DNA from: an uncultured Eubacteriales bacterium
Lineage (GTDB): Bacteria > Bacillota > Clostridia > Oscillospirales > Oscillospiraceae
DNA: 34,364 bases
Reading direction: 5' to 3'
Assembly: GCA_900319635.1 (NCBI GenBank)
Contig: ONPF01000025.1
Location: 1 to 34,364 of the forward strand
In this document: positions 9,060-14,361 of the stretch, piece by piece
Layout of the letters: each line of letters opens with the position of its first letter
Position numbering within the stretch: the first letter of the stretch is position 1
Position numbers and translations under genes: made by a program
Notes under the pieces: generated by a model
Told to the model about the DNA's origin: nothing
Database searches by the model: none
What the model saw: the letters and a program-made list of their open reading frames with translations, nothing else

Positions 9060-10238
9060 TCAGCTTCTCAGCGTGCGCCAGAGATCAGAGATATAATCGA
9101 GTGTGTCCTGATCCAGATTGCGGAAGGCGTACGCATTGTACAGCTCGCTGAAGTTCTCAATGCCGGGGTAGAGGATCTCCATGGCCTCTTCGCCCATATC
9201 CTCCCGATACCCTTCGTTCTCATAGACAAGGGAATTCGGAGAGGCATAGTAGATAAACTCGGCGTTGGCAATAGCGACTTCCTCGGAGAGCATGAAGTTG
9301 ATAAACTCCTCAGCCAGACGCTGATTCTGGCAGCCCTTGGGGATGCACATGGCGTCCACAAAGTAGTTGGTGCGCTCGGGGTAATAGAAGCGCAGATCCA
9401 CATCATCGGCCTGGGCGTCCAGCATGGTGAAATAGTCGCCGGCGTAGTAGGCGGCAATGGAGGCCTCGCCGATCTCCATCATGTTGTAGACCTCGTCCAT
9501 GACGTAGTTCTGAACCAACGGCTCCTGCTTCTGCAGCTCCTGCAGCGCCAGATCCCAGCTGGCACGGTCGGTAGTGTTCACGTCCAGACCCAGCTTGTAC
9601 TGGGCGGTGCCGAAGGCGTCGCGGGAGTTGTTGAACTGCAGGATCTTGCCGCTGTACTTTTCATTCCACAGCAGATCCCAGTCGCCCACATCCTCCGGAT
9701 CCACCACGTTGGCGTCATAGATGATGCCGACCACGCCATAGGTGTAGGGGACGGTGTACAGGTTGTCGGGGTCGTAGTACAGGCCGCGGAAGCTCTCGTT
9801 GATATACTGGTAGTTGGGGATGTTTTCGTAGTTCAGAGGCAGGAGCATATCATCGCTGATCATCTTGGCGATCATGTAGTCGGAGGGGATGATCACATCG
9901 TAGCTGACAGCGTCGCTGGAGAGCTTGCTGTACATGTCCTCGTTGCTGGCGAAGGTGCTGTAGTTGACCTTGACTTTGCGCCCATAGGTTGCCTCGAACC
10001 ATTCCTCAAAGGCGGCGACGGTATCAAGACTGCCTTCAAAGCCGTCCGAGATATACTCGCCCCAGTTGTACACGTTCAGCGTCAGCGTGCCGGTGCCCAG
10101 GAAAGGATTCTCCTCATCCGGTACGGCATTGACAGCGGGCTTGTTCTCCTGCTCCTCCGCGGAGCCGCAGCCGGCCAGCGCCGCGCAGACACTCAGAAGC
10201 ATGCATACGGAGAGAAGAACGGAAAGAAACTTTTTCAT
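9060..10238 (-). CDS. potD: Spermidine/putrescine ABC transporter, substrate-binding lipoprotein
   Basis: Protein of 392 aa. A lipoprotein signal (MKKFLSVLLS...LAGC) places the lipidated cysteine at C24. The mature part begins LTLNVYNWGEYISDG, the typical start of PotD/PotF-type periplasmic-binding-fold proteins, followed by YDVIIPSDYMIAKM and the conserved TYGVVGIIYD. It binds the polyamine outside the membrane and delivers it to PotBC. GGAGG precedes the ATG; it starts 12 bp after the potC stop. The ligand (spermidine, putrescine or a related amine) is inferred from operon type only. Confidence 0.95.
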   Translation of the reverse strand: MKKFLSVLLSVCMLLSVCAALAGCGSAEEQENKPAVNAVPDEENPFLGTGTLTLNVYNWGEYISDGFEGSLDTVAAFEEWFEATYGRKVKVNYSTFASNEDMYSKLSSDAVSYDVIIPSDYMIAKMISDDMLLPLNYENIPNYQYINESFRGLYYDPDNLYTVPYTYGVVGIIYDANVVDPEDVGDWDLLWNEKYSGKILQFNNSRDAFGTAQYKLGLDVNTTDRASWDLALQELQKQEPLVQNYVMDEVYNMMEIGEASIAAYYAGDYFTMLDAQADDVDLRFYYPERTNYFVDAMCIPKGCQNQRLAEEFINFMLSEEVAIANAEFIYYASPNSLVYENEGYREDMGEEAMEILYPGIENFSELYNAYAFRNLDQDTLDYISDLWRTLRS

Positions 10239-10250
10239 GATGAAACCTCC

Positions 10251-11087
10251 CTATATTGCTTGTTTTTTTGCTTTTTTCTTTTTCTTGGCTTCCTTCAGGC
10301 TTTTGCTGGTCTCGCTGTCAAAGAGATTGGAGAGCATCAGCAGCGCCAGAATGACAAAGAAGATGACCGTAGCCAGCGCATACACGGTGGGCTTCACGTC
10401 CCGCTTCGTCATGTTGAAGATGAAAATGGGCAGCGTCTGGAAATCTTCGCCCATGGTAAAGTAGCTGATGACAAAATCGTCCAGCGAAAGGGTGAAGGCC
10501 ATGATCATGCCGGTGAGGATGCCGGGCATCAGCTCGGGCAGCTCCACCTTGAAAAAGGCCCGCAGAGGCGTGCAGCCCAGATCCATGGCGGCCTCCGGCA
10601 GAGATTTGTCCATCTGCTGCAGCTTGGGCAGGACCTGCAGGATCACATAGGGCAGGCAGAAGGTGATGTGGGCGATCAGCATCGTCCAGAAGCTGAGCTT
10701 GTTGGCCAGACCGAAGAGACGGCCCACAAAGACGAACATCAGCATCAGGGAAATACCGGTGATGATGTCGGGGTTGATCATGGGGATGTTCGTCACGGTA
10801 TCCAGAGCCACGCGCAGATATTTTTTCCGGAGCCGGAAGATGCCGACGGCGGCGGCGGTACCCATGATCGTGGAGACGATCGCCGCGCTGAAGGCCAGAA
10901 TCAGCGTGTTGCGCAGAGATTCCAGCAGGCGGGCGTTATCGGCCAGCGCCTCATACCAGCGGAAGGAAAAGCCGGACATGACCGCGGTGCTTTGCTGACC
11001 GTTGAAGGAAAAGACGATCATGATGGCGATGGGCGCGAAGAGGAACAGGAGGATCAGACCCGTATAGATTTTGGAGAGAACTTTCAT
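10251..11087 (-). CDS. potC: Polyamine ABC transporter permease PotC
   Basis: Protein of 278 aa with about six membrane segments. The EAA loop EAAMDLGCTPLRAFFKVELP (about residues 176-195), which contacts the ATPase, and the LSLDDFVISYF segment are typical of PotC/PotI permeases. The tail is very lysine-rich (SLKEAKKKKKAKKQ). GGAGGG upstream of the ATG; 12 bp after potB. Pairs with PotB in the inner membrane. Confidence 0.95.
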   Translation of the reverse strand: MKVLSKIYTGLILLFLFAPIAIMIVFSFNGQQSTAVMSGFSFRWYEALADNARLLESLRNTLILAFSAAIVSTIMGTAAAVGIFRLRKKYLRVALDTVTNIPMINPDIITGISLMLMFVFVGRLFGLANKLSFWTMLIAHITFCLPYVILQVLPKLQQMDKSLPEAAMDLGCTPLRAFFKVELPELMPGILTGMIMAFTLSLDDFVISYFTMGEDFQTLPIFIFNMTKRDVKPTVYALATVIFFVILALLMLSNLFDSETSKSLKEAKKKKKAKKQAI

Positions 11088-11099
11088 ACCCTGCCCTCC

Positions 11100-11965
11100 T
11101 TACGCTACGGCCCGTTTGTTGGCTCTATGCTGCAGGATAGCCATGAAGATCAGCAATAGAACCATCATCACAAAGGCAATGGCGGCTGCTCGGTTCAGAT
11201 TCCTGTTGTAATAGATCAGATCCTCGATCTCGTCGCCGATCAGACGGTTGCTCTTGCCGCCCAGCTTTTGAGAGATATAGAAGGTGCTGACGGAGGGGAT
11301 AAGCACCATGTTGATCCCGGAGATGACGCCCGGGAGACTCAAGGGCCAGATGACACGCCGCAGCACGCCAAAGCCGTTGCAGCCCAGGTCCCTGGCGGCT
11401 TCCAGAAGCTTGGGGTCCATCTTGGCCATCACGGAATAGATCGGCAGGATCATATAGGGCAGATAGTCATAGACCATGCCGATAATGACGGCGGCTTCGG
11501 TGTTGATGAGGTGGATGGGGCCGAGACTGAGTTTTCCCAGGTAGGTGTTGAGGATGCCCTTGTCCAGCATGATCATGCGCCAGGTATAGGTGCGGAGCAG
11601 AAAGTTCATCCACATGGGGATCATGATGACGGTGATCAGAATGCTCTGCATCCGGGGAGAGGCATGGGCGATCCGGTAGGCGAGGGGATAGCCCAGCAGC
11701 AGGCAGATCACCGTGGAAATGGCAGAGAGCTTGAAGGATCGGAAAAAAATCGTCACATAAAACGGGAGAGAGGCATTCTCGTCCGTTTTGTAGGTGAAGA
11801 TATAACGCATGTTCTCGGTGGTAAAGTGCAGCTCTTCATCGGTGAAAGCATAGAAGGCGATGAAAAAGAGAGGCACTACAATGAACAGCACAGCCCAGAA
11901 GGAATATGGCGCGAGAGCAAGCCTCTGGACAAGACTGCCCCGGCGAAGAGCGGCATTCCTGTTCT

Positions 11966-11969
<4 letters not shown>
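11100..11969 (-). CDS. potB: Polyamine ABC transporter permease PotB
   Basis: Protein of 289 aa with about six membrane segments and an EAA loop, [20 protein letters not shown] (about 193-212). The N-terminal [20 protein letters not shown] and the [13 protein letters not shown] segment are typical of PotB/PotH. The ATG overlaps the potA stop by 4 bp (ATGA), giving translational coupling. Confidence 0.95.
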
Positions 11970-13144
<1,175 letters not shown>

Positions 13145-13160
13145 GCCTGTTCCTCCCCGC

Positions 13161-13195
13161 AAAGAAAAAAGACGCATGCTTTTAGCATACGTCTT
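13161..13195 (-). terminator. Intrinsic terminator abutting the potA ribosome site
   Basis: On the minus strand AAGACGTATGC (13195-13185), loop TAAAA, GCATGCGTCTT (13179-13169), then TTTTCTTT. It is an 11-bp stem with one G-U pair and a long U-run. The potA ribosome site (13152-13156) lies about 5 bp past the U-run, leaving no room for a promoter downstream. It therefore fits a regulated leader terminator, or the end of the upstream RNA. Confidence 0.85.
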
Positions 13196-13313
13196 ATGAT
13201 ACGACCTATTACCGGCGCAGCCTGCAGGGAGCGCCCGGGTCACAATGGGTTTGAGAGTCTATATAGCAAAACACTTTTACTACTCTTATTGACCATTTCA
13301 CAAGTTGTATGCT
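13184..13313 (-). promoter_or_regulatory. Possible antiterminator and three-way junction in the pot leader
   Basis: The RNA segment AGCAUACAACUU (13313-13302) can pair with AAGACGUAUGCU, the 5' arm of the terminator (13195-13184): 7 plus 3 bp around a 2-nt internal loop. The same segment can instead be used by local stems: UAUAAGUUG/CAACUUGUG (13348-13340 with 13307-13299, 9 bp including two G-U), GGUU/AACC (13340-13327) and GCUUU/AAAGC (13323-13311). The two folds exclude each other. No folding energies were computed. Confidence 0.5.
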
Positions 13314-13364
13314 TTGGTAAAGCACCGGTTTATAGTAACCAACTTATAAAATTTGCGCTTTGAA

Positions 13365-13535
13365 CGCAATCAATAAGGCAACAGAAGTTGCCGCCGCACC
13401 TGCGGAATTCGGTTGACGGGATCCAAACCTTGTTCGAACCTCGTCAGCCGTCGGCATCCGACCCGGCTGTCCGTGTGGCCTTGGCCCCGAAGGGCGGTCG
13501 CTATCTTGCTTCGGATAGACCCTATCCAATTGAGA
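13365..13535 (-). ncRNA. Structured leader or small RNA of unknown class
   Basis: About 170 nt transcribed from the promoter at 13542-13570. Helices visible by eye (RNA sense): a closing stem AUAGGG/CCUUAU; GGUC-UAUC...GAUA-GC-GACC; GCCC-UUCG-GGGC; CAGCCG-GG-UCGG-AUG-CCGA-CGGCUG; a long hairpin ACG-A-GG-UUCGAAC-AAG-GUUUGGA-U-CCCGU; CCGCA-GG-UGCGG; GGCAAC-UUCU-GUUGCC. No SRP, 6S, tmRNA, RNase P, T-box or common riboswitch signature was recognised. It may be the 5' domain of the potABCD leader or an independent RNA. Confidence 0.55.
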
Positions 13536-13541
13536 CGACTT

Positions 13542-13570
13542 ATTCTAACAAGTTTCCCCAGTGATGTCAA
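13542..13570 (-). promoter_or_regulatory. Strong sigma-A promoter of the pot leader RNA
   Basis: Minus-strand TTGACA (13565-13570), a 17-bp spacer and TAGAAT (13542-13547). The predicted start near 13535 lies 390 nt before the potA start codon. A second, weaker candidate (TTGATT-17-TTTATA, around 13345-13373) lies inside the leader. Confidence 0.85.
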
Positions 13571-13617
13571 GGAAAAACTGTGTCTAAAAATAGTATAAGG
13601 TAAGCAGTTCGTTCTGG

Positions 13618-14361
13618 TCAGTTTTCATAGCGCACATCCCAGAGTGTGAGCCCTTTGGCGGGCGCGGTTGCGCCGGCTCTGGCACGATCCCGAGAGGCGA
13701 GAATCTCTCCCATTTCCTCCGGTTGACGCTGACCAAGACCCACTTCCAGCAGCGTGCCGGTCAGGATCCGCACCATGTTGTAGAGAAAGCCGTCACCCGT
13801 GAAGGATAGACGAATCTCCGCTCCTATTTGTTCCAGACTGATGTCGCGCAGATGGCGCAGGGTGGATTTTTTGCTGTTTTTCACGGAGCAGAAGGCGGCA
13901 AAATCATGTTCTCCGCAGAGAAGCGCAGCGGCCTTCTCCATGGCGGGCAGATCCAGGGACTCCGGAACGGGGAGAACATAGCGCCGCTCAAACACATTTG
14001 GCGCCTCGCTGTTCCAAATCCGATAAACGTAGGTTTTCTCCACGCAGCTCAGCCGGGCGTGGAAGCGGGGCGGCGCCGGCTCCAGAGACACTGCGCCGAT
14101 GTCCTCCGGCAGAAAAGAGCGAAGCCTGCGCAAAAGGTCATCCGGTTCAAGCAAAGTATTCGCCCGGAAGGAGCACACCTGTCTGCGGGCGTGGACGCCC
14201 GCATCGGTGCGCCCGCTGGCGGCCAGCTCCACCGGCTGCTCCAGAAGGCGGGAGAGAACGGTCTCCAGCTTCTCCTGAATGGTGCCTCCGGTGTTGCCCT
14301 GCCGCTGCCAGCCCTTGTAGCGTGTACCGTCGTAACAGAGTGTCAGTTTGAAATTCTGCAT
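13618..14361 (-). CDS. truA: tRNA pseudouridine synthase A
   Basis: Protein of 247 aa. TruA makes pseudouridine at positions 38-40 of the tRNA anticodon arm. The opening MQNFKLTLCYDGTRYKGWQ, the catalytic loop SGRTDAGVHA with D53, and the late FTGDGFLYNMVRILTGTL are intact. The start at 14361 is chosen for the strong GGCGGTGA site 5 nt upstream. An in-frame ATG at 14412 overlaps the stop of the upstream gene and would add 17 residues unlike TruA. It is the distal gene of a two-gene unit with the LRR protein. Confidence 0.95.
   Translation of the reverse strand: MQNFKLTLCYDGTRYKGWQRQGNTGGTIQEKLETVLSRLLEQPVELAASGRTDAGVHARRQVCSFRANTLLEPDDLLRRLRSFLPEDIGAVSLEPAPPRFHARLSCVEKTYVYRIWNSEAPNVFERRYVLPVPESLDLPAMEKAAALLCGEHDFAAFCSVKNSKKSTLRHLRDISLEQIGAEIRLSFTGDGFLYNMVRILTGTLLEVGLGQRQPEEMGEILASRDRARAGATAPAKGLTLWDVRYEN

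Follow-up and report, generated by a model that had tools for sequence, protein, structure and literature searches.

A conserved attenuator leader before potABCD in an uncultured Oscillospiraceae bacterium, probably part of a polyamine-responsive riboswitch class

What controls the potABCD operon of an uncultured Oscillospiraceae bacterium, in which an intrinsic terminator stands directly before the first gene? The window analysed here spans positions 1 to 34,364 of contig ONPF01000025.1, and a first-pass annotation of its letters had proposed that a leader terminator and a mutually exclusive antiterminator govern the operon, in the layout of an OFF riboswitch or a protein-controlled attenuator. 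The operon and its genes are:

9060..13144, reverse strand: potABCD, the predicted regulated operon, from profile-model matches of the four proteins
13144-11966, reverse strand: potA, with PotA above the curated cut-offs NF043075 and TIGR01187
11969-11100, reverse strand: potB, best model a polyamine transporter, score under its cut-off
11087-10251, reverse strand: potC, best model a polyamine transporter, score under its cut-off
10238-9060, reverse strand: potD, best model a polyamine transporter, score under its cut-off

The potA ribosome site lies at 13158-13151 and the potA start codon at 13144. No AdoMet decarboxylase was seen in the window's genome (91.68% complete), a single Orn/Lys/Arg decarboxylase scored over the cut-off (C35) with a second match below it, and the Rfam family RF02440, described below, occurs before potA only; uptake may therefore be the main source of spermidine in this bacterium. 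Elsewhere in the window, four consecutive tRNA genes occupy 1734-2111 on the reverse strand, and a protein of 563 aa that matches a leucine-rich-repeat model (PF12799, 47.5 bits) is encoded at 16100-14409, upstream of truA.

Three signals frame the region between promoter and potA:

13542..13570, reverse strand: predicted promoter TTGACA-17-TAGAAT, 11/12 consensus matches
13302..13313, reverse strand: antiterminator strand AGCAUACAACUU, common to the P8 and P6 3' strands
13161..13195, reverse strand: intrinsic terminator plus U-tract, AAGACGTATGCT-AAA-AGCATGCGTCTT followed by a T-tract, 12 bp stem

The terminator was found where the first-pass annotation had placed it, although the gap to the potA ribosome site is 2 nt and not the approximately 5 bp given there. 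The promoter that this reading places upstream of the terminator is likewise predicted, with transcription starting at about 13535, which makes the potA leader ~390 nt long; its TTGAC -35 box was aligned in 23 of the 24 leaders compared, the sequence of the 24th ending before the box. We recovered the same 7 + 3 bp pairing between the antiterminator strand (13313-13302) and the terminator 5' arm (13195-13184), as well as the proposed three-way junction that uses the antiterminator bases. The stretch 13420-13144 (277 nt) folds with z = -3.98, none of 200 shuffles being equally stable, and the unconstrained minimum-energy folds include all three stems of the junction. When both states were folded, the energies favoured junction plus terminator even without ligand (-142.4 versus -131.8 for the alternative in the full leader, and -128.2 versus -124.3 in the nascent leader), so that a default ON state would need kinetics or an error of the energy model.

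The element had been thought to be confined to 13144-13348. This proved too narrow, as the conserved RNA begins near 13535 and ends at about 13254, with ~250 nt of conserved structure, and its 5' part matches a catalogued family. Its parts in the window are:

13511..13529, reverse strand: 5' hairpin with loop GGGUCUA (13522-13516), complementary to UAGACUC (13261-13255)
13451..13500, reverse strand: core matching RF02440, SpF59_sRNA (ldcC RNA), 63.2 bits, gathering 37.2, E 2.9e-9
13410..13450, reverse strand: extra hairpin of ~41 nt between core and P3, similar only in L003 among 24 aligned leaders
13377..13392, reverse strand: hairpin P3, GGCAAC/GUUGCC, both-side changes at 6/6 pairs (82 sequences)
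13249..13376, reverse strand: 3' domain P4-P9, which includes the three-way junction, 125.6 bits (E 1.7e-23) with covariance model R1, which covers this domain only and was trained on 43 sequences, the window's own included
13296..13352, reverse strand: three-way junction of P6 (13352-13341/13306-13296), P7 (13340-13327) and P8 (13325-13309)

The match to RF02440 is full length (13500-13451), passing the gathering cut-off and covering model positions 1-54. In Rfam the family is a 54-nt Streptococcus sRNA gene, whereas here it forms the 5' part of an attenuator leader of ~390 nt; judging by its second Rfam name, 'ldcC RNA', a link to ldcC had probably been drawn before. The first-pass annotation knew of no riboswitch class of this form. 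None was found in our search either, although part of the RNA was already catalogued: in the window only RF02440 and tRNAs pass gathering, which rejects a T-box or another Rfam riboswitch, and the weak matches to trpB and ncr1241 stay far below cut-off. A SAM-I-type spermidine riboswitch was rejected because a SAM-I match is absent from 13100-13640 at E up to 1.

P4 (UUAUUGA/UCAAUAA) is a closing stem. The 5' hairpin loop may reach over to the RNA's 3' end and base-pair there, and we propose a long-range pseudoknot or a second switch from this complementarity; since the 3' bases are also part of P9, both are possible. Over 107 loci, 5' loops (GAGUC-like) paired with their own 3' ends (GACUC-like) at a mean of -9.03, against -8.13 for swapped ends, and none of 10000 class-stratified permutations fitted as well.

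Conservation of the helices was assessed on alignment A2, comprising 82 representatives of the 109 loci that hold all anchors, while 38 of 147 loci were excluded because flanks were short, insertions intervened or anchors were absent. RNAalifold gave a poor, partial structure on the first joint alignment, and helices were therefore defined on a single sequence (L048) and then counted on A2. Across 59 pairs, 93.1% of pair cells were paired, compared with 87.5% after shuffling and 44-47% when partners were slid by one column, while both-side changes were seen at 29 pairs (16.2 +/- 2.1 shuffled) and double-change cells numbered 320 (102 +/- 16 shuffled). This covariation is carried by the inner core hairpin, P3, P5, P7, P8 and P9. 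Within the junction, where the earlier proposal had called for covariation in relatives, both-side changes occur at 2/4 pairs of P7 and 5/5 of the poorly aligned P8; P6 is nearly invariant (1/11 pairs), and with none in P4 the covariation says little on P4 and P6. Because P8 fragments aligned poorly in A2 (62.7 and 77.8% paired), the P8 place was also checked sequence by sequence, and a hairpin was present there in 125 of 130 leaders against 77 +/- 6 after shuffling. The outermost pair of the RF02440 core is CG, UA or GC across relatives, and the invariance of the core stems partly from selection, as the loci were searched by core pattern.

If the leader is an attenuator, antiterminator and terminator should fit each other within each leader. 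Of 147 leaders, 130 have a terminator-like hairpin, a count that retains a few doubtful hairpins from the finder (for example, L010, L014 and L029), and some of the others have short downstream DNA. For 120 distinct segment/arm pairs in four gene classes, pairing of a leader's segment with its own terminator arm averaged -13.48 kcal/mol, compared with -11.70 +/- 0.19 after permutation within class, and 0/20000 class-stratified permutations were as good; any leader of a class could stand in for any other in these permutations, which retain kinship within the class. The own arm has a median rank of 31/120, so coupling is an average effect. By class, permutations as good (of 20000) numbered 7 for decarboxylase leaders and 0 for both potA and speD leaders. 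The carboxynorspermidine-synthase-like leaders alone gave no coupling signal (14264/20000, n=15), a group that barely varies and so lends no support, and leaders of the same genus alone gave a weaker one (41/20000, n=22). Other leader segments pair worse with the arm, the best neighbour at -9.6 and the rest at -4.0 to -9.0. Individual leaders illustrate the fit: AGCACAC in L014 complements terminator GUGUGCU (read by eye, the automatic finder having picked another hairpin), and CCGGUAU in L015 complements AUACCGG. The mutual exclusion of junction and antiterminator proposed at the outset is thus backed by shared bases, covarying helices and permutation tests, and from sequence comparison a cis-acting attenuator role of the leader is well supported.

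A terminator in a leader could also be governed by a translating ribosome, and speF leaders of this leader-peptide type are known for polyamine genes elsewhere (cited in PMC10319736). An open reading frame of at least 6 codons with a ribosome site occurs in 9/130 of the present leaders, against 36-49/130 in ten simple shuffles; with such frames rarer than in shuffles we rejected leader-peptide attenuation, which we regard as highly improbable.

In the window's genus, RF02440 was found in 33 of 37 genomes, and in 39 of 60 relatives overall, the window's own genome counted. Among the best 30 of these loci, which were found by covariance model and whose genes were judged from reading of the proteins, 26 stand before potA, one before potB (L012), two before AdoMet decarboxylase (L009, L026) and one before Orn/Lys/Arg decarboxylase (L024). 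All 30 share GGCCANRCGGACAGCCGGGUC, as covariance-model finds. When named genomes were scanned for the core pattern alone, irrespective of the genes nearby, at least 117 loci emerged; going by their names, most of the matches listed belong to Bacillota (Clostridia, Bacillus, Paenibacillus, Acidaminococcus), and one is a Spirochaetes bin (L085). After exclusion of 8 loci with <480 nt of downstream DNA and 3 without an open reading frame, 106 were classified, the downstream gene being the longest reading frame starting within 1 kb, assigned by Pfam and clustering and then by reading the DNA; frames between RNA and chosen gene were examined in 12 loci in which that gene is >400 nt away. The first pass gave Orn/Lys/Arg decarboxylase (34), PotA-like (31), AdoMet decarboxylase (25), saccharopine-dehydrogenase-like (15) and one unresolved. 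From the DNA, an AdoMet decarboxylase precedes the decarboxylase in L078, L085, L098, L113 and L125 and is the true gene of L142, and the corrected classes are Orn/Lys/Arg decarboxylase (29), potA (31), AdoMet decarboxylase (31) and carboxynorspermidine-synthase-like (15). In 106/106 classifiable loci among the matches listed, the principal same-strand gene in the first 1 kb after the RNA is thus a polyamine gene. Naming of eight downstream proteins with NCBIfam placed both AdoMet decarboxylases above cut-off and matched both saccharopine-dehydrogenase-like proteins to carboxynorspermidine synthase below cut-off; three of four decarboxylases matched LdcC far below cut-off and the fourth, a fragment, had no match. 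In L020, leader and potA are separated by a gene of the P-II family (PF00543, 92 bits), with a similar reading frame at that place in L103, and perhaps nitrogen signalling is linked with polyamine uptake there.

The association recurred in a sample of 398 genomes of the phylum, in which strict filters were applied to both searches. R1 was found in 24 genomes and RF02440 in 18, all within the 24, leaving 6 R1-positive genomes without an RF02440 match. Besides the window's potA, the other 23/23 R1 finds precede AdoMet decarboxylase (10), saccharopine-dehydrogenase-like (7) or Orn/Lys/Arg decarboxylase (6) genes by Pfam.

The 5' hairpin, RF02440 core, P3, P4, P5, the P6-P8 junction and P9 are present in all four gene classes, while parts are missing in single copies (for example, L028, L044, L065, L125 and L132). 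L044 and L028 keep the core and terminator with most of the 3' domain gone, and are possible degenerate or minimal leaders. In L187 and L189, AdoMet decarboxylase leaders of one genus, the promoter is followed only by the strand from P6 3' to P9 and the terminator, the core, P3, P5, P7 and the 5' half of the junction being absent; the full RNA is therefore not always needed, and this short form may hint at a minimal sensor. The core varies among more distant finds (L159, L161-L163), and the diverged cores of L161 and L162 suggest an extra short stem, GGC/GCC (AGC/GCU in L161), that is absent from the Rfam structure. A palindromic repeat-like insert sits in the P7 loop of L007, L013, L101 (a duplicate of L013) and L136, and past the terminator in L021. 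It reads GGAACGGATGC or its complement, close to a CCTCATGC or CCCCATGC end, and a motif search in one orientation was positive for L021 and L136.

Going by name, copies of this RNA have been catalogued as small RNAs. In pneumococcus, F59/srn235 is listed as an sRNA positioned between SP0915 and SP0916 (PMC3395615) and M7 is listed as the sRNA srn235/F59/Spd_sr49 (PMC12323649). A separate entry is a 79-nt RNA of B. subtilis, given as 'unknown or speD leader' (PMC3574147). Among the matches listed from the open-licence literature, the present RNA appears in sRNA entries only, and none names it a polyamine riboswitch. On the strength of the Rfam name and these pneumococcal entries, the terminated leader (SpF59/F59/srn235) might act on other mRNAs, and a terminated leader would resemble an sRNA. 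The same-strand position of the RNA upstream of polyamine genes in every classifiable locus and the coupling of terminator and antiterminator argue against this, as does the location of pneumococcal F59 next to SP_0916 (PMC3395615), an arginine decarboxylase (PMC7531197). We rejected a pure trans-acting sRNA as the best explanation on gene association and coupled terminator, and hold it to have very little chance of being correct; the terminated leader may have an additional role in trans.

The two options of the first-pass annotation, OFF riboswitch and protein-controlled attenuator, both still stand, and gene content and RNA size favour the riboswitch. A polyamine-sensing RNA-binding protein that stabilises junction or antiterminator would give the same terminator/antiterminator anatomy; yet conserved structure extending over ~250 nt is more than one would expect of a simple protein site, and the RNA occurs sporadically in distant families across the phylum (RF02440 in 18/398 genomes), making such a protein unlikely in our view. 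A little less probable still is that the RNA senses a different pathway metabolite (agmatine, arginine, decarboxylated SAM or SAM) or works as an ON switch. Such a reading would suit the presence of AdoMet decarboxylase and Orn/Lys/Arg-type decarboxylases among the targets, but the same RNA also precedes the PotABCD importer and the carboxynorspermidine-synthase-like gene, which leaves polyamine feedback as the common denominator; an ON switch sits poorly with an antiterminator that is hidden by the junction, which fits OFF.

We therefore consider that the leader probably attenuates transcription as one member of a large conserved class of polyamine-gene RNAs and acts as a polyamine-bound OFF riboswitch. 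Polyamines are abundant and bind RNA, and because the genes downstream make or import polyamines, polyamine feedback would be the natural signal. RNA polymerase would start near 13535 and make the sensor, first the RF02440 core and then the junction domain. With the junction domain folded, the P8 and P6 3' strands would hide the antiterminator, the terminator would form and potA would be off; with it unfolded, the antiterminator would pair with the terminator 5' arm and transcription would continue. Direct binding of a polyamine, spermidine being the first choice, would stabilise the folded state. The RNA thus probably shuts the downstream genes off when polyamines are plentiful, and we infer the ligand, its direct binding and the OFF direction. 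Judged from the genes and taxa in which it occurs, the class most likely regulates how polyamines are made and taken up, chiefly in Bacillota.

Numerous attempts at finding polyamine switches, mostly unpublished, are mentioned in the introduction of Salvail et al. 2023 (PMC10853860), who describe a rare spermidine riboswitch, a variant of SAM-I with 13 examples. Like that variant, the present RNA would be a transcriptional OFF switch before polyamine genes of Gram-positive bacteria, ldcC included; unlike it, the window lacks a SAM-I match at E up to 1, whereas the variant has the four-stem SAM-I architecture. A terminator/antiterminator before potABCD has also been proposed for the ABC-leader of Haemophilus and Pasteurella (Naville and Gautheret 2010, PMC2965389), which is named for two gammaproteobacterial species and was compared by description only. 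In Borrelia (PMC10319736), added spermidine lowered potA/B mRNA, and at 10 mM in stationary phase short potB 5' fragments increased; there the premature 3' end falls within the reading frame of potB, and the passages that report it describe no leader RNA of the present kind. The potE and odc1 motifs (PMC8632094), again compared by description only, are candidate regulatory RNAs with polyamine-linked genes downstream; the former, termed a weak candidate, comes from Veillonella and environmental samples only, and the latter is a uORF element of alphaproteobacteria.

On balance, we lean towards a polyamine riboswitch class separate from the SAM-I variant, with two domains and a 5'-3' pseudoknot, that would act by feedback termination of speD, ldcC/speA-type, carboxynorspermidine-synthase-like and potABCD genes across Bacillota and that has been masked by its sRNA label. 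More than 100 leaders are available for ligand testing. Should the pneumococcal copy prove to be built alike, the nature of the 'sRNA' SpF59/F59/srn235 would be explained as well. If the reading is true, the RNA would be a second polyamine switch, commoner than the SAM-I variant, placed ahead of synthesis genes as well as import genes in many genomes.
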